Notes under the pieces: generated by a model
The model's input: only the letters and a program-made list of their open reading frames with translations
Databases searched by the model: none
What the model was told of the DNA's origin: nothing
NCBI GenBank assembly: GCA_903919545.1
Contig: CAIXIN010000091.1
Span: forward strand, 1 to 36,063
DNA length: 36,063 nucleotides
Reading direction: 5' to 3'
DNA from: an uncultured bacterium
Lineage (GTDB): Bacteria > Bacillota_I > Bacilli_A > Erysipelotrichales > Erysipelotrichaceae
In this document: piece after piece, positions 1,332 to 19,609 of the stretch
How the letters are laid out: every line of letters begins with the position of its first letter
Numbering within the stretch: the first letter of the stretch is position 1
Made by a program: the position numbers and the translations under genes

Positions 1332-2297
1332 TTATCCAAGGATAACTAAGGTCAGGTTGATGAGCAGTTCTTTATCTTTTGGATCGGAAGCTGCGATGAG
1401 AATAGCCAATGCTGCAAGTGTCTCATCATTGATTCTCTTGTTACCTATAATAAACAAAGCATTGTTTCTGTCTAGAAAATACAAGAAAATCGTTGATGCG
1501 ATTCGTTTGTTTCCATCGATGAAGCTATGATTCTTTGTGATCAAATAAAGCAGATTGGCTGCTTTTGATTCTAAAGTCGGATAAAGCTCCTTCCCATCGA
1601 ATGTTTGATAAATGGTGGATATACTTGAGTTAAAGGATTGATCACGTTCTTTAGCAAAATTATCACTTTTCCCAGAGAATTTGCTACGGTGAATGATATC
1701 CATACATTCACTGTAATTGATCTGATAAGTATCATGAATTCCTTCGGGTGTTTCAAATGTCCGATGATCATAATCATCTAAAATTGAAAGACCTCTATTG
1801 TAGGCTATCAAAAACTGAAGCAAATCATTACCGCTTAAAGTCAAATCACCATCGATTCTTCGATATGCATCAAGTAATTGAGTAATTTCCGACAGATTTG
1901 GGACTTCAAGTTTTTTGTTATTGATGCTATAACCTTTTCTTAAGTACTCTGAAAGTATTAAGTTGGCCCATCTTCTGAATTCAATACCTCTTTCGGACTT
2001 AACTCGATAACCCACGGATAAAATCATGTCGATACCATAATGTTCTACAATTCTTTGAACTTGTCGGTCACCTTCAAGTTGAACTGTCGCAAATTTTGCG
2101 ACAGTTGGAATATGCTTCAATTCTTCTTTCAATGCGTTATTAATATGTTTCCCTATGGTCTTTATATCTCTTTTAAATAAATCCGAGATTTGGTTTCGGT
2201 TTAGCCAGATCTCTTCCCCATCAAACTTAACATCTATAGAAACTTCACCATCGGTTGACTTGAAAATAATCACCTCATCATTTTCGAATTTCTTCAT
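1332..2297 (-). CDS. RhuM-family protein with C-terminal Fic/Doc domain
   Basis: The N-terminal half (about residues 10-130) matches the virulence RhuM family, with IWLNRNQISDLF, RQVQRIVEHYGIDMI and the SERGIEFRRWA block. The C-terminal half carries a Fic-type signature, HSFIDGNKR, near residues 257-265. Fic enzymes transfer AMP or phosphate from nucleotides to proteins. Here the motif has K where AMPylators have G, and lacks the final arginine of HxFx(D/E)GNGRxxR, so it looks closer to Doc kinases. RhuM was named from a Salmonella pathogenicity island; its biochemical role is not established to my knowledge. The gene stands alone: no Phd-like antitoxin is visible on either side. It lies convergent to proS, and its GATC content is lower than in the core genes, which fits an accessory gene. 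Confidence 0.85.
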   Translation of the reverse strand: MKKFENDEVIIFKSTDGEVSIDVKFDGEEIWLNRNQISDLFKRDIKTIGKHINNALKEELKHIPTVAKFATVQLEGDRQVQRIVEHYGIDMILSVGYRVKSERGIEFRRWANLILSEYLRKGYSINNKKLEVPNLSEITQLLDAYRRIDGDLTLSGNDLLQFLIAYNRGLSILDDYDHRTFETPEGIHDTYQINYSECMDIIHRSKFSGKSDNFAKERDQSFNSSISTIYQTFDGKELYPTLESKAANLLYLITKNHSFIDGNKRIASTIFLYFLDRNNALFIIGNKRINDETLAALAILIAASDPKDKELLINLTLVILG

Positions 2298-2607: not shown

Positions 2608-2634
2608 GGTTTCTTATAAATCCACTGCAGTACA
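2608..2634 (-). repeat. Copy A of a 27-28 bp dispersed repeat
   Basis: Plus strand GGTTTCTTATAAATCCACTGCAGTACA would be 27 bases; the shared core is TTTCTTATAAATCCACT. It matches 18661-18688 at 25 of 28 positions (one gap, two substitutions) in the same orientation. Read on the minus strand both copies start TGKACTG, as many IS3-family ends do, and can also be read as the peptide L(Q/K)WIYKK. It is most likely a leftover of a mobile element, either a terminal repeat or the end of a transposase gene; no full element is present. Confidence 0.55.
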
Positions 2635-4523: not shown

Positions 4524-5076
4524 AATCGCCCCTTTCAAGAGACTCATTAAATCTCTTACGATCGATCTCATATCGATACTGATCTCTATTCTTTTGGCTT
4601 ATGTCTCGAGCTGGTCGAACTCCACTTTCAGTAGAAATAAGACTCATCCCTAGCTTTCTCATGAGCTGATAAGATTTATGATTCTCCGTATCACAAGTCG
4701 CTTCTATGGTATCGCATTTCAACACATTGAAACCAAAGGTCAATATTTCTAGTGCGGCTTGAAAAGCGTATCCTTTACCCCAATGAGCTCTATTTAAGAT
4801 CCATCCTATTTCAGCTTTAGTTCCTTTTAGGCTCAAAGAAACACCGCCAATCAATTGATTAGATTTTTTCTCAATGATCGCAAGACCATATTCATCTCGC
4901 GGTTCTTGAAGACTTTTAAAGATCGACAAAGCAATGAATTGTTTAGTTTCAAATAGTGTATTTGGACCCCAAAGCATGTATTTTAAAACATCCTCATCTG
5001 TCCCATAAGTATGGACCGCATCACAGTCAGTAAAAGTGTATTCACGTAAAATCAAGTCTTTAGAATGCAGTCTCAT
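4507..5076 (-). CDS. GNAT N-acetyltransferase, RimJ/RimL type
   Basis: 189 residues. It opens like ribosomal-protein alanine acetyltransferases (LHSKDLILREYTFTDCDAVHTYG) and has the acetyl-CoA binding loop WGKGYAFQAALEIL (the Q/RxxGxG/A pattern as HWGKGYA) and the late block CDTENHKSYQLMRKLGM. Enzymes of this kind move an acetyl group from acetyl-CoA to a protein N-terminus or a small amine. The substrate cannot be told from sequence. It is the first gene of a two-gene unit with the PQ-loop protein. Confidence 0.9.
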   Translation of the reverse strand: MRLHSKDLILREYTFTDCDAVHTYGTDEDVLKYMLWGPNTLFETKQFIALSIFKSLQEPRDEYGLAIIEKKSNQLIGGVSLSLKGTKAEIGWILNRAHWGKGYAFQAALEILTFGFNVLKCDTIEATCDTENHKSYQLMRKLGMSLISTESGVRPARDISQKNRDQYRYEIDRKRFNESLERGDYARIV

Positions 5077-5155
5077 ATTTACCTCATCTATTTATATGTC
5101 TATATCTATTATTGATTGAAATAAGAATGATTTTAAAAAGTAAATTTTCTTTAGT

Positions 5156-6799
5156 TTATGAGTGAAAAAGGCTTCCTTGTTCATTCATTCTTTTAAATAC
5201 AGCTACTACAGCAGGATCAAATTGAGCCCCAGAACATTTCTCAACTTCTATCATAGCTTCAGCATGACTAAGTACTTTCTTATAGGTTCTTTCATTGGTC
5301 ATGGCGTCAAATGAATCAGCCAGAGAAACAATTCTCGCCAGCAAAGGTATTTCTTTATTCTTTAATTTTCGTGGATAACCAGTCCCATCCCAACGCTCAT
5401 GATGACACAGAACAATCAATCCTACTTGAGAGAATTCACTGACTGAGACTAAAATCCGATAGCCCATTTCAGAATGTTTCTTAAGCAATTCAAATTCTTG
5501 ATTGGTAAGCGATGTATTACTGTTTAGAATCGATTCATCTATTCCAACTTTACCTATGTCATGCATAAGGCCAGCTAAACGAACTTGATTATTTTCTATG
5601 GTATTTAAGTTCATTTCTTGACCAATCCTATAACATAGATCACTTACTCTACGAGAGTGTTCAATTTCTCTAGGATTTTTCTCATAGAGTGTATTCATAA
5701 TCAGATTGATCATATTGCTCTTTGAACTGGTATGTTCAAAAAGCTTATTGGTATACATTTGATCCTCAGCCGATTTAAAGACAGACTCCATACTCTCCCC
5801 TTGTCTTGTTTTTGAACTTGTTCCAAAAGAAATAGAGATTAAACTGCCTTTCTTATTTAAATCCTCGATCATCTTTTTAATGCGTTCAATAATAATATTG
5901 ACTTCCAACATCTGTGTATTTGGCAAGATAACAACAAATTCATCGCCTCCTAATCGCGCAATAATCTCATCAGCTCTACAGCACTTCTTAATCACTTGAG
6001 CTGCTTCAATGAGAATCTTATCACCATGAAGATGACCAAAAGAATCATTGATCAATTTCAATCCATTCACATCACCCATTAGAATAGTCAAAGGATAATT
6101 ACGAGCTGTGTCTAAACGAACCAACTCTTGTTCGTAAAATCTACGATTATATAAACCAGTAAGTGGATCATGATAACTTATATATTGTATTTCTTCTTCC
6201 TTTTTTACCCGTTCTGAGATGTCTATCAGTACGATTTTAAATGTCATTGGTTCAACATCTTTTATCGCTGAAATTTCTAAATGACCCCAAAATGAAAAAC
6301 CATCCGATCTCATCATTTGAGCTTCCATCTCTACAGGAACCAAGGCATTTATAGAATCTTTCAGTTTACTAAAGTATTCATTTTGAGATTCCTTTTTAAT
6401 AAACCTAGAAAACCCATTTCTCAAGAGTTTATTCCTTTGAGTTAATAAGAGAGTACAAAACGTAAGATTGGTTTCTATTATGATTCCTTTTTCAGATAAT
6501 ACGACATATCCCACAGGAGCAAATTCATAAAGATCAAAGTACTTTGATTTTGTTTCTTCAAGCTGATTGGAAACTCGAGTAAGTTCATTGTTTTGCATCT
6601 CAAGTTCAATTTGATGAACATGAAGTTCATGAATGACTGAGATGATCTCATGAGGTTTCATTTTACTAATGTGTTCAACATCAATAAATTCATCAAGACT
6701 TAATTGTTTTTCAGCATTTGCACGAACAGATTCCTGTTTTTTCAAAGATGTTTTTATCGTTTCTTCATTCTTTGTCAACAGAGTACTATTTTTCTTCAT
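5156..6799 (-). CDS. PAS-GGDEF-HD-GYP c-di-GMP enzyme
   Basis: 547 residues, no transmembrane segment. A helical N-terminal part (about 20-90) is followed by a PAS domain (about 85-205, YDLYEFAPVGYVVL-like), a GGDEF domain with an intact RLGGDEF signature (near 280) and an HD-GYP domain with MHDIGKVG (near 408) and HHERWDGTGYP (near 453). GGDEF domains make c-di-GMP and HD-GYP domains hydrolyse it, so both activities look possible. The allosteric I-site, usually RxxD nine residues before GGDEF, reads RADE here, so product inhibition may be weak or absent. Its start overlaps the CheB-CheR fusion stop by 14 nt. That places it in the same operon and suggests the two act in one signalling path. 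Which activity dominates is unknown. Confidence 0.93.
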   Translation of the reverse strand: MKKNSTLLTKNEETIKTSLKKQESVRANAEKQLSLDEFIDVEHISKMKPHEIISVIHELHVHQIELEMQNNELTRVSNQLEETKSKYFDLYEFAPVGYVVLSEKGIIIETNLTFCTLLLTQRNKLLRNGFSRFIKKESQNEYFSKLKDSINALVPVEMEAQMMRSDGFSFWGHLEISAIKDVEPMTFKIVLIDISERVKKEEEIQYISYHDPLTGLYNRRFYEQELVRLDTARNYPLTILMGDVNGLKLINDSFGHLHGDKILIEAAQVIKKCCRADEIIARLGGDEFVVILPNTQMLEVNIIIERIKKMIEDLNKKGSLISISFGTSSKTRQGESMESVFKSAEDQMYTNKLFEHTSSKSNMINLIMNTLYEKNPREIEHSRRVSDLCYRIGQEMNLNTIENNQVRLAGLMHDIGKVGIDESILNSNTSLTNQEFELLKKHSEMGYRILVSVSEFSQVGLIVLCHHERWDGTGYPRKLKNKEIPLLARIVSLADSFDAMTNERTYKKVLSHAEAMIEVEKCSGAQFDPAVVAVFKRMNEQGSLFHS

Positions 6800-9700
6800 T
6801 AGGATTGCCTTTTACAGTTTCCAGTTCAAACAATTTCCTAGATAAAAGTTCCGCTTTCTTGCGATCTCGAACATCTCGTATATTACATTGAATTAGTTTA
6901 CGACTAGAGATTTCGAGGTGATTAAAAGTAAATTCCACAGCAATCAATTCATTTTTTGTACTTTCAAGTTCAAATTCAATATCCTGTATGTTTTTCTTTT
7001 TTTGCATTTCACTGAATTTATTCTTGTTTGGAATAATATCCTTAAAAAATCCAATATCCCAGATTTCTTTCTCTAAAAACTGTATTTCAGAATACCCTAG
7101 TAATTTGATTAAGAATGGGTTCACTTTTAGTATTTTTCCACTGGTCTTATCTAAAATAAGAATACCTTCATGTGTAGTCTCAAACAATGTACGATAACTA
7201 AATTCAGAAACCGCTAATAAATCATTGGTGTATTTAGCTTCGCTGATATCTAAGAAAGAGATAACGGTACCTTCAATGACATTATCTATCGTTCGATATG
7301 GTTGAATGATCATACTAAACCATTTTCCTTCGAGAGTTTGAACTTCGATGGTTTTCGGCACTAAGGTTTCTAGAACAGTTTTTACATCGTGGGTCAATTG
7401 ATTGTAATTCAGTAAATTGGTTACGATATGGGAAATAGGACGTCCTAAGTCACTTGCGATTAGATTGACGATCTTATCTGCTTTGGGGGTAAATCTTAAG
7501 ATTTTTTGCTGAAGATCTAAGAAAACAGTAGCAATATTTGTTCCTGCAAGAAGATTGTTCATATCATTGTTGACCTGTGATAAGTCATGAAGTTTAATTT
7601 GTAGCTCAGAATTTACCGTTGAGAGTTCTTCATTGATCGATTGTAATTCCTCTTTAGAAGTTTCCAGTTCTTCATTCGTCGATTGAAGCTCCTCATTAAC
7701 AGATTGCATCTCTTCATTCGATGACTTAAGTTCTTCATTTGAAGTTTCTAACTCTTCATTAGAAGTTTGAAGATAGTCTTCTTTAATTTTAAGCTCTATC
7801 TTTAGTTGCTGAAGTTGTTTGTCTATATCAACAGGTAAATTAACTTTTGTAGATTCTTGTGTATCAACGGTATCTTGTTCCTTTTGATTATCCAACAAAA
7901 TGATAAATAAAGGATTATCGTATTCAGAGGTCAACCCTTTCATGATGACCTTAATGGTTAGATTTACTTTGGTAAAGTGACCATTGGTTTTTACGTTGAC
8001 ATCTTCAACTCTAATGGTTTCTCTATTTTCAACGGCTTGATGAAACGCATTAGATAATTCACGTTTCAGACCTTCTCTCGCCATTTTTAAGACATTGTTG
8101 ATTCCGCTTTCACCTGGATTCAATTCTAAATATAAGCCAGAATGTCCATGTAAGTATAGAATATCTCCTTTTTCATTAACGAGAATACCTATAATGGCAC
8201 TTTCTTTTAAGATGGCTTGTTCAGCAAGATCTTTTAATGAATACTTTACTTGCTTGCTACTGTCTACTGTTTGTTTAGTCATAACAAAATCGACCTCCCT
8301 AGTACTTGGTACTAATTGAGTAAAAGTTTTTGAAATTAAACTTACCTTTTTCTGATATATTTTTATCTTATGTTCAAATATTTTAAACAACTCATCATAT
8401 TCACCTATTGTTTCAGAAGTACCTAAGAATAGAAAACCTTTTTCATTCAAAGCATAATGAAACATTGGAATAATCTTATTTTGGAGCTCTTTATCAAGAT
8501 AAATCATAAGATTTCTACAAGAAATTAAGTCTAGATGAGAAAAAGGCGGATCCTTTATGATGGATTGTTCAGAGAAGACGAGCATTTCGCGTATGGTTTC
8601 ATTGATTTGATAGGTGTCTGCACCTACTCTCAAGGTGAAGAACCTTTCTAAACGTTCAGCAGATACATCTTGAGCGATGCTTCTAGAAAAGATACCAGTT
8701 CTAGCGACCGCTATCGCTTTACTATCAATATCTGTTGCAAAAAGCTGTATGTTAAAGTTTTTCTGTAACCTTTCTATTCTTTCTTGAATCAATATGGCGA
8801 TAGAATATGCTTCTTCACCTGTTGAACAACCAGCACACCAGATACGTATATTGGAACCAGTAGGTTTATTCTCAAACAAGTTAGGAATTATGATTTCTTC
8901 GAGCTTCGAAAATGTCTCTTTATCTCTAAAGAAAGATGTAACTCCAATAAGAAAATCCGCAAACAAACATTTTATTTCATTAGGATTTTGTTGTAAGAAT
9001 TGGACATAATCTGGAAGTGATTCAATTTGATTGACAGCTAGTCTACGTTGAATACGGCGATTGATGGTATTGGGTTTATATTTAGAAAAATCATGACCCG
9101 TTTGATTTCTTATAAGAACGAAAATCTTCTTAAGTGAAGTTTCTTCTTTGAGTATATTTGATTGTTCATACTTAAAATCATAGTCATTGGCATGGGTTAG
9201 ATACGCAATAATTTGTTTTCCCATATCTGCAGGAAGCAATTGATAATCTACTAACCCAGTTGCAATCGCATTAAGAGGCATTCCGTCATACTCAGTGGAC
9301 TGAGGGGGTTGAACGATAGCCATACCACCTTCACCTTTAATGGCTCTTAATCCTAAGGTACCATCACTTCCAGTTCCTGAAAGTATTACACAGATGGCTT
9401 TCTCATGTTGATCATTGGCTAAAGATCTAAAGAAAAAGTCAATAGGCATATTTGTGCCTCTAGAAGTAAAGATTTCAAACAGTTGAAGATATCCGTTTAA
9501 GAAAGACATATTACGATTAGGTGGAATAATATACACACAGTTGGGTTCTACTTTCATTCCATCTGTAACTTCAACCACTTCCATTTTTGTATACCTTTTA
9601 ATGATCTCAGCTAAAATACTTTTATGATCAGGGGCTAAATGTTGAATCAAAACGAAAGCTAAATTAACAGAATTTTGATTTGGAATTCCAGAAAAAAACG

Positions 9701-9866
9701 CCTCAAAAGCAGCTAATCCACCCGCTGAAGCTCCAATACCTACAATTGGAAAATCTGATGAGTCTACAACTTTATTTATCTTAGAATCGTCTTTTATTTT
9801 TACCTCATCAACAATTGAAATTGGATTTTTAATAGGTTTTACTTTTTTTCTATCTTTTCCTGGCAT
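6786..9866 (-). CDS. CheB-CheR-PAS fusion signalling protein
   Basis: 1026 residues in this order: CheB methylesterase (about 40-225; GIGASAGG serine, IQHLAPDH histidine, SGTGSDGT aspartate); CheR methyltransferase (about 240-510; SAM loop WCAGCSTGEEAYS and DLISCRNLMIYL); a long coiled coil of NEEL/SxNEE heptads (about 690-780); then two PAS domains (about 790-900 and 920-1010). CheB and CheR set receptor methylation in chemotaxis, but no receptor or Che kinase is here and there is no receiver domain, so it more likely belongs to the hybrid class that links to other outputs. The ORF's first 28 codons are dropped because AAGGGG precedes the ATG at 9866. GATC content is low compared with the core genes. 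It is cotranscribed with the c-di-GMP enzyme. Confidence 0.93.
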   Translation of the reverse strand: MPGKDRKKVKPIKNPISIVDEVKIKDDSKINKVVDSSDFPIVGIGASAGGLAAFEAFFSGIPNQNSVNLAFVLIQHLAPDHKSILAEIIKRYTKMEVVEVTDGMKVEPNCVYIIPPNRNMSFLNGYLQLFEIFTSRGTNMPIDFFFRSLANDQHEKAICVILSGTGSDGTLGLRAIKGEGGMAIVQPPQSTEYDGMPLNAIATGLVDYQLLPADMGKQIIAYLTHANDYDFKYEQSNILKEETSLKKIFVLIRNQTGHDFSKYKPNTINRRIQRRLAVNQIESLPDYVQFLQQNPNEIKCLFADFLIGVTSFFRDKETFSKLEEIIIPNLFENKPTGSNIRIWCAGCSTGEEAYSIAILIQERIERLQKNFNIQLFATDIDSKAIAVARTGIFSRSIAQDVSAERLERFFTLRVGADTYQINETIREMLVFSEQSIIKDPPFSHLDLISCRNLMIYLDKELQNKIIPMFHYALNEKGFLFLGTSETIGEYDELFKIFEHKIKIYQKKVSLISKTFTQLVPSTREVDFVMTKQTVDSSKQVKYSLKDLAEQAILKESAIIGILVNEKGDILYLHGHSGLYLELNPGESGINNVLKMAREGLKRELSNAFHQAVENRETIRVEDVNVKTNGHFTKVNLTIKVIMKGLTSEYDNPLFIILLDNQKEQDTVDTQESTKVNLPVDIDKQLQQLKIELKIKEDYLQTSNEELETSNEELKSSNEEMQSVNEELQSTNEELETSKEELQSINEELSTVNSELQIKLHDLSQVNNDMNNLLAGTNIATVFLDLQQKILRFTPKADKIVNLIASDLGRPISHIVTNLLNYNQLTHDVKTVLETLVPKTIEVQTLEGKWFSMIIQPYRTIDNVIEGTVISFLDISEAKYTNDLLAVSEFSYRTLFETTHEGILILDKTSGKILKVNPFLIKLLGYSEIQFLEKEIWDIGFFKDIIPNKNKFSEMQKKKNIQDIEFELESTKNELIAVEFTFNHLEISSRKLIQCNIRDVRDRKKAELLSRKLFELETVKGNPNEEK

Positions 9867-9965
9867 GTTAATCCCCTTATAGAGTTGTCTCTGTGATGAA
9901 TAAACGACGATCATTGTAATTAAGAGAATCATTAAACTGAAGAAAAACAACTATCTAGTATAGAT

Positions 9966-9971
9966 ATTATA
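9966..9971 (-). promoter_or_regulatory. Candidate -10 box for the CheB-CheR operon
   Basis: A perfect TATAAT on the minus strand about 100 nt before the start codon, in an AT-rich gap. No good -35 box lies 17 bases upstream (roughly GGTGAT), so this is tentative. Confidence 0.35.
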
Positions 9972-10059
9972 CAACGGATATATGTTTTTATCACCATATC
10001 CTGGATAAACGAAAACAGAATAATCTATTTAAAGAAATTCTAGTTTTATTCAATTGAGT

Positions 10060-11523
10060 TTATTTTAGTAGGTATTCATTAACTTCAGAAGCGACGCTTT
10101 TGCCTTCTTGAATGGCCCATACAACCAAGCTTTGGCCTCTTCTCATATCGCCAGCGGTAAAAACTTTATCTATGTTTGTCTTAAAAGAACCATAATCTGC
10201 TTTATAGTTGCTTCTTGGATCTACTTCTAACTTAAGTTCATTTGCGATATGAGCTTCAGGTCCCATAAATCCCATAGCCAATAAGACAAGATCAGCTTTC
10301 CAAACTTGTTCACTATGATCTACTTCAACAGGTATAAATCTTCCTTTAGAATCTTTTTCCCACACGACTCTACTCGTATGGACTTCTTTAACTTCTCCTA
10401 AGTCATTGGCGATCAATTTCTTCGCACTTATCAGGTATTCTCGTGGATCTTTACCTGTGATCGCAATGGCTTCTTCTTGACCATAATCGACTTTTAACTT
10501 CTTAGGCCATTCTGGCCAAGGATTCGTGAGTGGATTACGTTCTTTAGATGGTTCTCCCATGATTTCAAACTGAGTAACACTTAGACAAGATTGTCTTAAT
10601 GAAGTCGCGACACAATCGGTTCCTGTATCGCCTCCTCCTAAAATGATCACATGTTTACCACTGGCTGAAATCGATGAAACAACTTCTTTATTTAAAAGAC
10701 GTTTTGTATTCGCTTTTAAGAAATCTACCGCAAAGTAAATCCCTTTCGAAGTAGATCCTTCGATCTCTATACCACGAGCTTTTGTCGCACCACCACATAA
10801 GATCACCGCATCATATTCATCCACTAAGGATTTTGAACTGATGTCTTTCCCTACTTCGGTATTTACGATAAAGTGAATCCCTGATCGTCTCATCAGATCG
10901 ATTCTTCGCTCAACGATGCCTTTATCAAGCTTCATATTAGGAATCCCATACATCAGTAAACCACCCACTCGATCATGTCGTTCGTAGACGGTGACCTCAT
11001 GACCCAATGCGTTTAAACAAGAAGCTGCGGAAAGCCCAGAAGGACCTGAACCTACGATGGCTACTTTTTTACCGCTAGGTTTGGATGTTTTAGGAAGAAC
11101 CCAACCTTCTTTAAATGCTTTCTCGATGATTTGATACTCGATACTGCTTATGGCGACAGGATCTAAGATCGAGCCTTCTGTACATGACCCTTCACAAGGT
11201 GCAGGACAAACACGAGCAGTAAACTCAGGAAAAGGATTGGTTCTGCTTAATCGACGATAGGCTTGTTCCCACTGATTTTTATATACCAGATCATTCCATT
11301 CTGGAATGAGATTATGTAAAGGACAGCCTGCTGTCATACCATTGAGTTGGACCCCTGAACTACAATAAGGGATCCCACAGTTCATACAACGAGCGCCTTG
11401 AACTGAAACTTGATCGTCGCTTTGAGGCAAACGAATCTCATTGGCGTCTTTTAAACGATCTAATGGTAATCGTTTAGAAGGATCACTTCTTTTATATTCT
11501 AAAAAACCTGTGACTTTACCCAT
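10060..11523 (-). CDS. gltD: Glutamate synthase small (beta) subunit
   Basis: 487 residues. It takes electrons from NADPH and passes them to the large subunit for glutamate formation. Two N-terminal iron-sulfur cysteine sets are visible (CMNCGIPYC...CPLHN and CPAPCEGSC), then an FAD-binding Rossmann motif (VAIVGSGPSGLSAA, near 150) and an NADPH-binding motif (VIILGGGDTGTDC, near 290). Length is usual for the family. It starts 12 nt after the gltB stop with AGGAGA as ribosome site, so gltB and gltD are one operon. No anomaly seen. Confidence 0.97.
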   Translation of the reverse strand: MGKVTGFLEYKRSDPSKRLPLDRLKDANEIRLPQSDDQVSVQGARCMNCGIPYCSSGVQLNGMTAGCPLHNLIPEWNDLVYKNQWEQAYRRLSRTNPFPEFTARVCPAPCEGSCTEGSILDPVAISSIEYQIIEKAFKEGWVLPKTSKPSGKKVAIVGSGPSGLSAASCLNALGHEVTVYERHDRVGGLLMYGIPNMKLDKGIVERRIDLMRRSGIHFIVNTEVGKDISSKSLVDEYDAVILCGGATKARGIEIEGSTSKGIYFAVDFLKANTKRLLNKEVVSSISASGKHVIILGGGDTGTDCVATSLRQSCLSVTQFEIMGEPSKERNPLTNPWPEWPKKLKVDYGQEEAIAITGKDPREYLISAKKLIANDLGEVKEVHTSRVVWEKDSKGRFIPVEVDHSEQVWKADLVLLAMGFMGPEAHIANELKLEVDPRSNYKADYGSFKTNIDKVFTAGDMRRGQSLVVWAIQEGKSVASEVNEYLLK

Positions 11524-16206: not shown

Positions 16207-16353
16207 AATCTTTCAAGAAATTATGTAATTTCTTTCTTTAACAATCATAGCACATCATTTCAATTAAGCCAAAAGCTCTAAGAAATCTTCAAGTAGATGA
16301 TTAAATAGGATAACTGATGTTTTCAAATAGAAACTTTATTAAAGAGTATAAGA

Positions 16354-16378
16354 AATCCCAATGGAATTCATTGGGATT
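16354..16378 (-). terminator. Hairpin, possible terminator
   Basis: Perfect arms AATCCCAATG / CATTGGGATT with a 5-nt loop. On the minus strand it is followed by TTCTTATACTCTTT, a weak T-tract. It lies about 230 nt beyond the immunity candidate and upstream of the gltB promoter, so it could end the Rhs transcript. Confidence 0.45.
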
Positions 16379-16546
16379 AGTTACAAAATGATAAATCTAG
16401 AAATAATCATTTCAAGAAGATCCATGATTTATACAACATACTTAATGCAAGAATTTAATAGGTTATCGTGTATTTATTTTGAGCAGTTTTTTAAAATTGC
16501 TTAGAATATTTTAAGATATCACTGTTCTCAAAACAGCACAGTTCTA

Positions 16547-16570
16547 TTTAGACTTAGATATAAGTCTAAA
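16547..16570 (-). terminator. Hairpin 3' of the immunity candidate
   Basis: Perfect 10-bp arms TTTAGACTTA / TAAGTCTAAA with loop GATA, 35 nt past the stop of the gene ending at 16605. It is AT-rich and has no T-run after it on the minus strand, so termination is doubtful; it may be a transcript-end stabiliser. Confidence 0.3.
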
Positions 16571-16604
16571 TTATTTCTATGAAAACCCTCAAAGTCAACT
16601 TCAT

Positions 16605-17159
16605 TTATACAGTATTCTCAACTTTGTACGAAAATATAGAAACAGTAAACCATTCCTGTTCACTTTCAATTAAGAAAGCATGTTCGGAACAATAGAAACT
16701 AAATTTATCAGCAATCTTTCGGGTTTCTAATAATCCATATGAGTTTAAATCACCAACTAATTCATTTTGAAAATTTACATCCATATATTTAAGTAGATAA
16801 GGAGCATTTCCACTAACACCTCCACTCCCAATTGGAGAATAATATAAACTTTTTGAACAAATATCGTAACCTAAAAGCTCAAAATGATGATCACAAAATA
16901 TTTGATTAGTACAAACAATGAGATCACAATTTTCTTTTTTGACATCTATTAGAGTTTTTACATTAATTGCTAAAGCCAAGTTTTTTTGGTTGAATGGGAT
17001 ATTTCTTGCTTCAATTGATTGAGAGTAAAAAAACTTAACAATTGGATGTTTCTTTGAATCTAAATCCCACTCGCCATAATTAGAGCGGAATAAACCACGA
17101 TATTCAATATCTTCCTTTGATTCGAATTTTAAAATATTCAAATATGTGAATTTTTCCAT
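16605..17159 (-). CDS. Candidate immunity protein next to Rhs toxin tip
   Basis: I do not recognise this 184-residue protein. It is soluble, with no signal peptide or membrane segment, and mildly acidic, opening MEKFTYLNILKFESKEDI. It contains several aromatic-rich strands and seven or so cysteines scattered without a metal motif. It starts only 2 nt after the stop of the Rhs reading frame and has no clear ribosome site of its own, which implies translational coupling. In polymorphic toxin loci, the gene directly after an Rhs C-terminal domain usually encodes the cognate immunity protein, and that is why I propose this role. The gene is more AT-rich than its neighbours, in keeping with transfer. 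Function is inferred from position only. Confidence 0.6.
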   Translation of the reverse strand: MEKFTYLNILKFESKEDIEYRGLFRSNYGEWDLDSKKHPIVKFFYSQSIEARNIPFNQKNLALAINVKTLIDVKKENCDLIVCTNQIFCDHHFELLGYDICSKSLYYSPIGSGGVSGNAPYLLKYMDVNFQNELVGDLNSYGLLETRKIADKFSFYCSEHAFLIESEQEWFTVSIFSYKVENTV

Positions 17160-17161
17160 AG

Positions 17162-18667
17162 TTATTTTAACCCTAGTATTTCCATGATTATTTCCGCTGC
17201 TTTCTCAGTAAGCGCAATATGAATTCGTCTTCTTCCTACATGCATATGAGGTAAAGGCCAGGCACCATGTCCTACTGTAAGATCAGTCATAGTTGCAGAA
17301 ATATCTACTTTGAAATAATCACATAATTTAATTATCCAATATAAAGTTCGTTCTGAAACTACTGTTTTTGTGGTTTCAAATGTTGTCTTTAATAACTCAA
17401 CAAGAAATCCTCCTGATGTTGGAGTCATTCCAAACATAGAGATTGCTGTTGACATCATAATTTTATACTGAATATATGGGATTACTATAGCTCCGATACC
17501 ATAAGCAACTGCTCCACCAATTACAGCTCCTCCAAGTGCATACCAACCCCAATTCTTGGAAATATTCTCATCTTTATTAGTTTTTGCCCACCACCCAGCA
17601 ATTCCACCAAGTACAACTGCACTTATAATTACAGCTAGAACTACGCTCTCTCCATTTGCATCACTATAAATAATTGGATTGTTTGCACAATAAGCATATA
17701 AATTTTGACCAATAAATACTGAATTATTATCAGAAGCACTATCCGCATTTATAAATCTTCCAATCTGTGGATCATAGTATCGGCTTTGAAGGTAATAGTA
17801 TCCAGTTTCCATATCGAAACGATAGCCTCTGTAACGATATGGATTGGCGATACCTAAGGTAGATGCTAATGAACCTGTTGTAGAAACAATTTCTCCATAG
17901 GTTGAATAGGTGTAATTGACGACAATGGTTCCTGCACTATCCACTAACCCAATGATGTCATTTTGTCCGTTACGGATGTAGGTGTATTCATTCCCATTGT
18001 AGTTGATCGAGATCAATTGTCCATTAGAATCATAAGTGTAATAGGAATAGACATTTCCTGTCTTCTCATAGGTGACTTTATCCCCATTGAGATGATAAGA
18101 CGTGGTTGTACTTCCAACAGTCTTGGATGTTCGAATACCAGAATCATTATAAGTATAGCTAATAGTAGGTCCAGCACTCGTTATTGAACTGAGTTGTCTC
18201 CCTTTATCCCAATTGAATGTATTCCCATTATAGGTTTTAATATTTCCTATCTCATCATAGGTCATCGTTAATCCATTAAATGAAGTAAGTTGATCTATCC
18301 AATTGGTATTCTCATATTCATAAGTATCTGTATCTGTTGGGGTCAAACCATCCACAGAACCTGTGGTATATCCATAGGTCTTCTTCGATAAGATATTCCC
18401 TCCAAAATCATAATCATAAATAACGGTAATGTTTTCTCTTTGGTTGTTTTCTCTTATAACCTGTCCTAACTCATCATACAGATATTGTATCACTAAACCA
18501 CCATAGGAAATTGAGTTGATGTTTCCATTGGCGTCATATAAATAGCTGATCTTAGAAGTTCCATTGGTGATGGACGTCAACTGAGCTGAGGTATACTCAA
18601 CATTCTCTATCGTAATATCCGTATAGATATAACTGGTCGTAAAAAAAACTACTTCAGATGGGCTTTC
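17162..18667 (-). pseudogene. 5'-truncated Rhs/YD-repeat toxin, C-terminal part
   Basis: The open frame holds several YD repeats (YLYDANGNI, YLYDELGQV, YDYDFGGNI, YTYNDSGIR), then the Rhs core block (RYRGYRFDMETGYYYLQSRYYD...GRFINAD, near residues 250-280 of the 472-aa track ORF), then a unique tip of about 160 residues from ESVVLAVI. The tip has two Gly-rich hydrophobic segments and a C-terminal part with GHGAWPLPHMHVGRRRIHI. Full Rhs proteins have a signal or anchor and well over a thousand residues; here the frame stops at 18668-18670, inside a repeat, and there is no ATG or ribosome site before the repeats (the track start is TTG). It is therefore a remnant or displaced tip module. The toxin activity is unknown; the histidine cluster suggests a nuclease-like active site, which is a guess. 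Confidence 0.85.
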
Positions 18668-18688
18668 TTATAAATCCACTTCAGTCCA
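18661..18688 (-). repeat. Copy B of the 27-28 bp dispersed repeat
   Basis: Matches 2608-2634 at 25 of 28 positions, same orientation, with 17 identical core bases. It lies within about 10-20 bases of the point where Rhs similarity ends, and contains the stop that closes the Rhs frame, so the element it came from probably caused the truncation. It also lies 12-40 bases past the stop of the solute-binding protein gene. Confidence 0.55.
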
Positions 18689-18700
18689 CTATGTGTTCAT

Positions 18701-19609
18701 TTATTTACTAACTACTTTTGAAGCATCCAAAGATAAACTAAACAAAGCCAAGAAGGCATCGATTTCAGCTTTCTTCTCACTGGCGTATTGGACATCGACA
18801 TTGAGTCGATCCCAAGTCGCTTTGACGATGGCGGCTGAAGGAACCCCTAGAACTTCTGGAGTCAAGGAAGTGATGTCGGTTTCTACGACGCTCTTGTCTG
18901 CACTTACTGAAGTCACATAGTCGATCATAGAGTTGACGCGATCCTTGAGTTGTTTGAGTTGAGTTGAACTGAGATCATCTCTGACGAAGATGGCTGCTTG
19001 AGGATAATTATCGAAACCTGTTTTCGTTTTCCAAGCTGCTTGTAGATCTGCGACGATGCTTAAGGTGATGCCTTGAGCTTTGGCTGCAGCCATCGTTGCA
19101 CTCGCTAATGGTTCTGCTAATAGGCCTAAGGCATAAGCTTTACTGACCAATTGACCTTTCACGTCAGCTACCGCATTGAAAGGTACTTTGGTGAAGGTGA
19201 AATCAAGTTGATCAGAGACATGGTTCAACACTAGCTCAGGAACTGCTTTGGATCCAAACATCGCAAGATCCATTGAATCTGTAAAGGAAACCGCTTCATC
19301 TTTGACGATGTAGAGGTTGCCCCAAGTGACAATCGCCAATAACTTATAGTTCGCATCACCTGCTTGGATAAGTTTAGAGCCTAGATTAATCGGTGCTATG
19401 ATCACATCTTTATCGCCTTGAATCAAGGCGGCGGAGATCACATCGGTCCCATCAACGAGTTCTACCCCATCGACATCTGCCTTCAAGATCGGAATCAAAG
19501 ATACCGATGGTGCTCCTTTAGGAGACAACCACGTAAAGGTATATTTTTTCGCTGGAGTACATGCGCTCATACTTAAGGCAAGCATCAAAATAATCAATAG
19601 TTTTTTCAC
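18701..19609 (-). CDS. ABC solute-binding lipoprotein, NitT/TauT-like
   Basis: 302 residues. A type II signal peptide ends in the lipobox MSAC, so the mature protein is probably anchored by Cys17. The rest resembles the nitrate/sulfonate/NMT1 class of periplasmic-type binding proteins (DVISAALIQGDKDVIIAPINLGSKLI, then AYALGLLAEPLAS). The start is GTG, overlapping the thrS stop by four bases (GTGA), so it is the last gene of the T-box-controlled thrS operon. No permease or ATPase follows; a permease of the matching class is at 3465-4184. Ligand unknown. T-box control would fit a threonine-related ligand, but this is inference and the family does not usually bind amino acids. Confidence 0.85.
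   Translation of the reverse strand: MKKLLIILMLALSMSACTPAKKYTFTWLSPKGAPSVSLIPILKADVDGVELVDGTDVISAALIQGDKDVIIAPINLGSKLIQAGDANYKLLAIVTWGNLYIVKDEAVSFTDSMDLAMFGSKAVPELVLNHVSDQLDFTFTKVPFNAVADVKGQLVSKAYALGLLAEPLASATMAAAKAQGITLSIVADLQAAWKTKTGFDNYPQAAIFVRDDLSSTQLKQLKDRVNSMIDYVTSVSADKSVVETDITSLTPEVLGVPSAAIVKATWDRLNVDVQYASEKKAEIDAFLALFSLSLDASKVVSK

Follow-up and report, generated by a model that had tools for sequence, protein, structure and literature searches.

A probable orphan rhs-CT/rhsI module with a candidate toxin tip and a candidate immunity gene beside an IS3-type end

The orphan rhs-CT/rhsI module of Salmonella Typhimurium LT2 consists of an rhs fragment in which some of the core is kept, with no initiation signals and a linked immunity gene, and it needed recombination with the main rhs gene for expression, a step favored by a 522-bp stretch of 95% identity (PMC3967940). 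In Salmonella Rhs the tip is also reported to be made internally and held by the immunity protein (PMC7043789). Orphan cdiA-CT/cdiI pairs are likewise detached toxin tips with their immunity genes, and in E. coli EC93 transposable-element sequence is present at the junction (PMC3150448). The window, the whole 36,063-nucleotide stretch analyzed here, is contig C91 of a 2.0-Mb assembly (284 contigs, estimated 80% complete), and the locus comprises the following features.

18701 to 19609, minus strand: upstream gene for a lipoprotein-like protein (302 aa) that overlaps thrS and whose 3' end forms the left insertion border; the sister genome is colinear to 18701
18654 to 18690, minus strand: IS3-type left-end remnant, TGGACTG...TTTATAAGA..., at the 5' junction (about 40 bp), recognized by similarity to the L036 and L040 copies
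17651 to 18641, minus strand: 5'-truncated rhs core, YD repeats to the motif DANG, assigned from TIGR03696, PF05593 and similarity to the C112 Rhs gene
17162 to 17650, minus strand: variable Rhs tip (162 aa), candidate toxin, with two hydrophobic Gly-rich segments followed by a C-terminal domain with GHGAWPLPHMHVGRRRIHI; differs from seven sibling tips, differs in GC3 from the core, no homologue
16605 to 17159, minus strand: candidate immunity gene for a soluble 184-aa protein of net charge -6, assigned from position, open frame and codon usage, no homologue
16260 to 16604, minus strand: AT-rich remainder of the insertion on its 3' side, as far as the region upstream of gltB; colinearity with the sister genome resumes at 16259

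The arrangement resembles the LT2 orphan in combining an rhs fragment, a partial core, a variable tip and a small linked gene with no initiation signals. It differs in that the contig has no main rhs gene ahead of the module, the nearest core in the assembly is 76% identical compared with 95% over 522 bp in LT2, and the tip and immunity sequences, whose toxic and protective roles are here putative, match nothing searched. The cdiA-CT/cdiI orphans share with the window the detached tip and immunity gene and the mobile-element sequence at the junction, whereas they belong to a CdiA delivery protein, have a VENN motif and form arrays beside the main gene. Orphans described so far mostly follow directly after the main gene, a placement that is typical and not obligatory. 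Similarity to the Gram-positive WapA/WapI system is seen in the sibling genes of this genome, which are large (one with 2448 codons and a hydrophobic N terminus) with YD repeats and variable tips, whereas the window fragment has lost the whole export and wall-binding part. We read the locus, with a probability of roughly 0.6, as an orphan rhs-CT/rhsI module with a candidate toxin tip and candidate immunity gene, placed by an IS-associated rearrangement. A sequence-only reading had proposed a displaced Rhs tip with a linked candidate immunity gene, which is borne out by the core, the repeats, the 2-nt spacing and the layout of the sibling loci. The new toxin-immunity pair that it proposed falls in an established category, that of orphan rhs-CT/rhsI modules; the sequences themselves are unclassified.

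The rhs fragment and the downstream 184-codon ORF are both on the minus strand, which that reading had not given, and the coordinates and anatomy it described (YD repeats, Rhs core, unique tip and next ORF) are correct. The open frame extends from 18667 to 17162 (501 codons) with Rhs homology from 18641, and none of its start codons has a clear ribosome site; the first TTG, at 18580, begins a 472-aa ORF in which residues 225-310 match TIGR03696 Rhs_assc_core (profile search, E 1.1e-20). Four matches to PF05593 RHS_repeat in the open frame define the YD repeats, and the DPxG-like motif that ends the core reads DANG. The unique tip following DANG spans 17650-17165 and ends in a TAA stop, and its two hydrophobic segments have KD values above 1.6. 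The signal peptide or export part and the long N-terminal region are absent, with stop codons located 5' of the start of Rhs homology. The missing N-terminal export part and the lack of a good start site mean that the tip in this state does not work as an exported toxin. GC3 is 0.32 in the core and 0.19 in the tip and immunity gene, a drop that fits exchanged modules.

Seven further Rhs 3' ends are located on contigs C112, C58, C149, C185 (two), C180 and C204, with Rhs repeats also on C43, so that other Rhs genes exist in the genome, as the sequence-only reading had supposed. Comparison of the window tip with the seven sibling tips shows that they share about 30 residues after GRFINAD and then diverge, and each sibling end is followed by a different same-strand ORF at a spacing ranging from a 50-nt overlap to a 55-nt gap. 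The shared core, divergent tips and individual downstream ORFs place the window fragment in the polymorphic toxin gene set of this genome. The C204 sibling tip belongs to a known toxin family, Ntox37, which it matches above the curated cut-off. The tips at L037, L038 and L040 appear nuclease- or peptidase-like by eye, an assignment set aside for want of Pfam support. The hydrophobic N terminus and large size of the 2448-codon gene, one of two on C185, are those expected of WapA-like exported proteins; together with a small downstream ORF it occupies L039:9328-17182, and another Rhs gene starts at 17640, forming a tandem.

No second rhs core is present within the 36-kb contig, and the full-length rhs gene with a matching core that had been sought is found neither next to the fragment nor elsewhere in the assembly. 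The nearest core, that of the C112 Rhs gene, has 76% DNA identity over 906 bp and a longest exact match of 26 bp, which does not support ready recombination within the assembly. The earlier suggestion that the tip could recombine onto an intact rhs gene is accordingly weakened when set against the Salmonella values, although a better partner could lie in the 20% of the genome that the assembly does not cover.

The sister genome G073 (98% complete) illustrates the site in its empty form. The two share 96.7% DNA identity along 10 kb as far as window position 18701, and 95.6% from 16259 on; between these points G073 has 78 bp, holding a terminator-like hairpin, compared with 2441 bp in the window. 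G073 has no Rhs core, and among eight genomes of the genus only G000 and G123 have one. The simpler reading is that the window lineage gained about 2.4 kb, the alternative being a loss in the sister. The 302-aa lipoprotein-like protein encoded at the left border matches no Pfam family. Elsewhere in the window, a 5-kb stretch (5062-10081) encoding a PAS-GGDEF-HD protein and a CheB-CheR-PAS fusion (1054 aa) is also absent from G073, where the colinear flanks are only about 130 bp apart.

The remnant at the 5' junction is 86 and 84% identical to L036:2777-2812 and L036:2513-2549, respectively, and is also similar to L040:2356. On C112 this IS3-type stretch precedes OrfA-like sequence. A 23-base pattern of the IS end matches six sites in the genome when up to three mismatches are allowed, and its reversed control matches none. 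The C112 copy (L036:2513-2847 region) begins some 50 bp past the candidate immunity gene of that locus and is followed 263 bp further on by a second copy, and the C180 copy (L040:2356-2392) is 40 bp behind its candidate immunity gene; the ends at both loci are oriented as their rhs genes, 40-55 bp behind the candidate immunity genes. A fifth copy is located at window 2612-2634, and a weak sixth on C149. About 300 bp from the fifth copy, window 1335-2297 encodes a 321-aa protein with RhuM and Fic/DOC domains. The few cases in this genome suggest that IS ends may mark module borders.

The sequence-only reading had recognized neither the tip nor the 184-aa protein, and this remains so after profile searches, in which no library gave a match (for the tip, Pfam, NCBIfam, PADLOC and PHROGs models). 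Relatives of the tip are absent from 196 family, 316 order and 392 phylum-drawn genomes, and those of the 184-aa protein from 196 family, 392 phylum-drawn and 395 class-drawn genomes. Neither protein gave anything beyond chance in GTDB genome contigs, viral contigs, plasmids and the PDB, nor did the tip in phages, which were searched with the tip only. The same tip was also looked for behind other Rhs cores, and none was found. Above the order level these genome searches cover samples, so the absence of relatives reflects the limits of the searches as much as novelty. Prion-protein matches to the Gly-rich segment and a match in G235 (E 0.001, a lipoprotein-like ORF) were dismissed as low complexity or chance, and the single viral contig matching a DNA pattern for GHGxWPxPHxH was dismissed as unrelated. 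AlphaFold models from the single sequences of the two proteins are too poor to be of use, with pLDDT values of 28 and 45.

Some findings speak against the reading as an orphan module: no homologue of the tip or the candidate immunity protein emerged from the searches to show an exchange history or a family function, the structure models are poor, and no full-length rhs gene with a matching core adjoins the fragment or occurs elsewhere in the assembly. An unlikely but serious alternative is that the locus is a dead remnant, in which an IS-associated deletion decapitated an rhs gene so recently that the tip and immunity frames have stayed open for that reason alone, with neither part expressed or selected. 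The truncated frame with no start codon at a good ribosome site, the loss of the 5' part at an IS end, the missing partner gene and the promoter-like sites, which at 19 compared with 14.5 +/- 3.9 expected are not beyond chance, would all agree with such decay. It is opposed by the absence of stops and frameshifts from the roughly 670 codons that make up the core remainder, tip and immunity gene, and by published orphans of similar appearance that are functional (PMC3967940, PMC7043789). The module could, even so, be decaying. That the two form an internal toxin-antitoxin pair instead, in which internal promoters drive production of the truncated tip within the cell and the 184-aa protein keeps it in check, is highly improbable: the 2-nt spacing, the Salmonella precedent (PMC7043789) and some 10-of-12 promoter-like sites within the rhs core are in keeping with it, but the chance-level number of these sites and the lack of an in-frame start with a good ribosome site are not.

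Least probable is that the 184-aa ORF is unrelated to the tip, either a chance ORF or an independent gene, as its having no homologue, family or structure might allow. The ORF is intact (17159-16605) and begins 2 nt past the TAA stop of the tip, and a same-strand ORF close behind the tip is likewise present at all seven sibling Rhs ends. In 2000 Markov shuffles of the region under a dinucleotide model, no open frame was as long as 184 codons (longest, 135), and the annotated frame is the best of six by the codon usage of neighboring genes. The sequence-only statement that this ORF lacks its own ribosome site is almost correct; the sole Shine-Dalgarno-like stretch is an AGGG 11 nt upstream, within the last codons of the toxin. 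Going beyond the orphan-module reading, the tip and the 184-aa protein may be undescribed toxin and immunity families with a new fold or target, and the IS3-type ends repeated break points that move modules, a combination that we regard as speculative and rather improbable.

Under the preferred reading of an orphan module, the 3' end of a WapA-like rhs gene with its tip and immunity gene would have been separated from the N-terminal delivery part and now be placed between the lipoprotein gene and gltB. The upstream break at the IS3-type end suggests that an IS-associated rearrangement probably placed or truncated the module. In its present form the tip cannot be exported, and it is probably either silent or expressed at a low level. 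The window has no terminator-like site on the minus strand between 19700 and 16150, and the terminator following the lipoprotein gene in G073 is absent, which makes read-through expression of the immunity gene possible, perhaps from the thrS-lipoprotein genes, with translation by coupling or from the weak AGGG site. We infer toxicity and neutralization from position only. In a target cell the hydrophobic segments of the tip would aid entry, and the His/Arg-rich C-terminal domain would be an enzyme, for which the predicted solubility of the immunity protein makes the cytoplasm the probable site of action; the 184-aa protein has no hydrophobic segment (maximum KD 0.69), which with its charge of -6 fits a cytoplasmic target. 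The most economical function is that of a kept immunity gene, whose product would guard the cell against kin carrying the same tip on an intact Rhs protein.

The locus adds another lineage, one with large WapA-like Rhs genes, to those with orphan Rhs modules, which have been studied best in Gram-negative bacteria, and its value is that the sister genome displays the empty site and an IS end sits at the break. A new toxin-immunity family is a reasonable proposal for the unclassified pair, whose toxic and neutralizing activities are putative.
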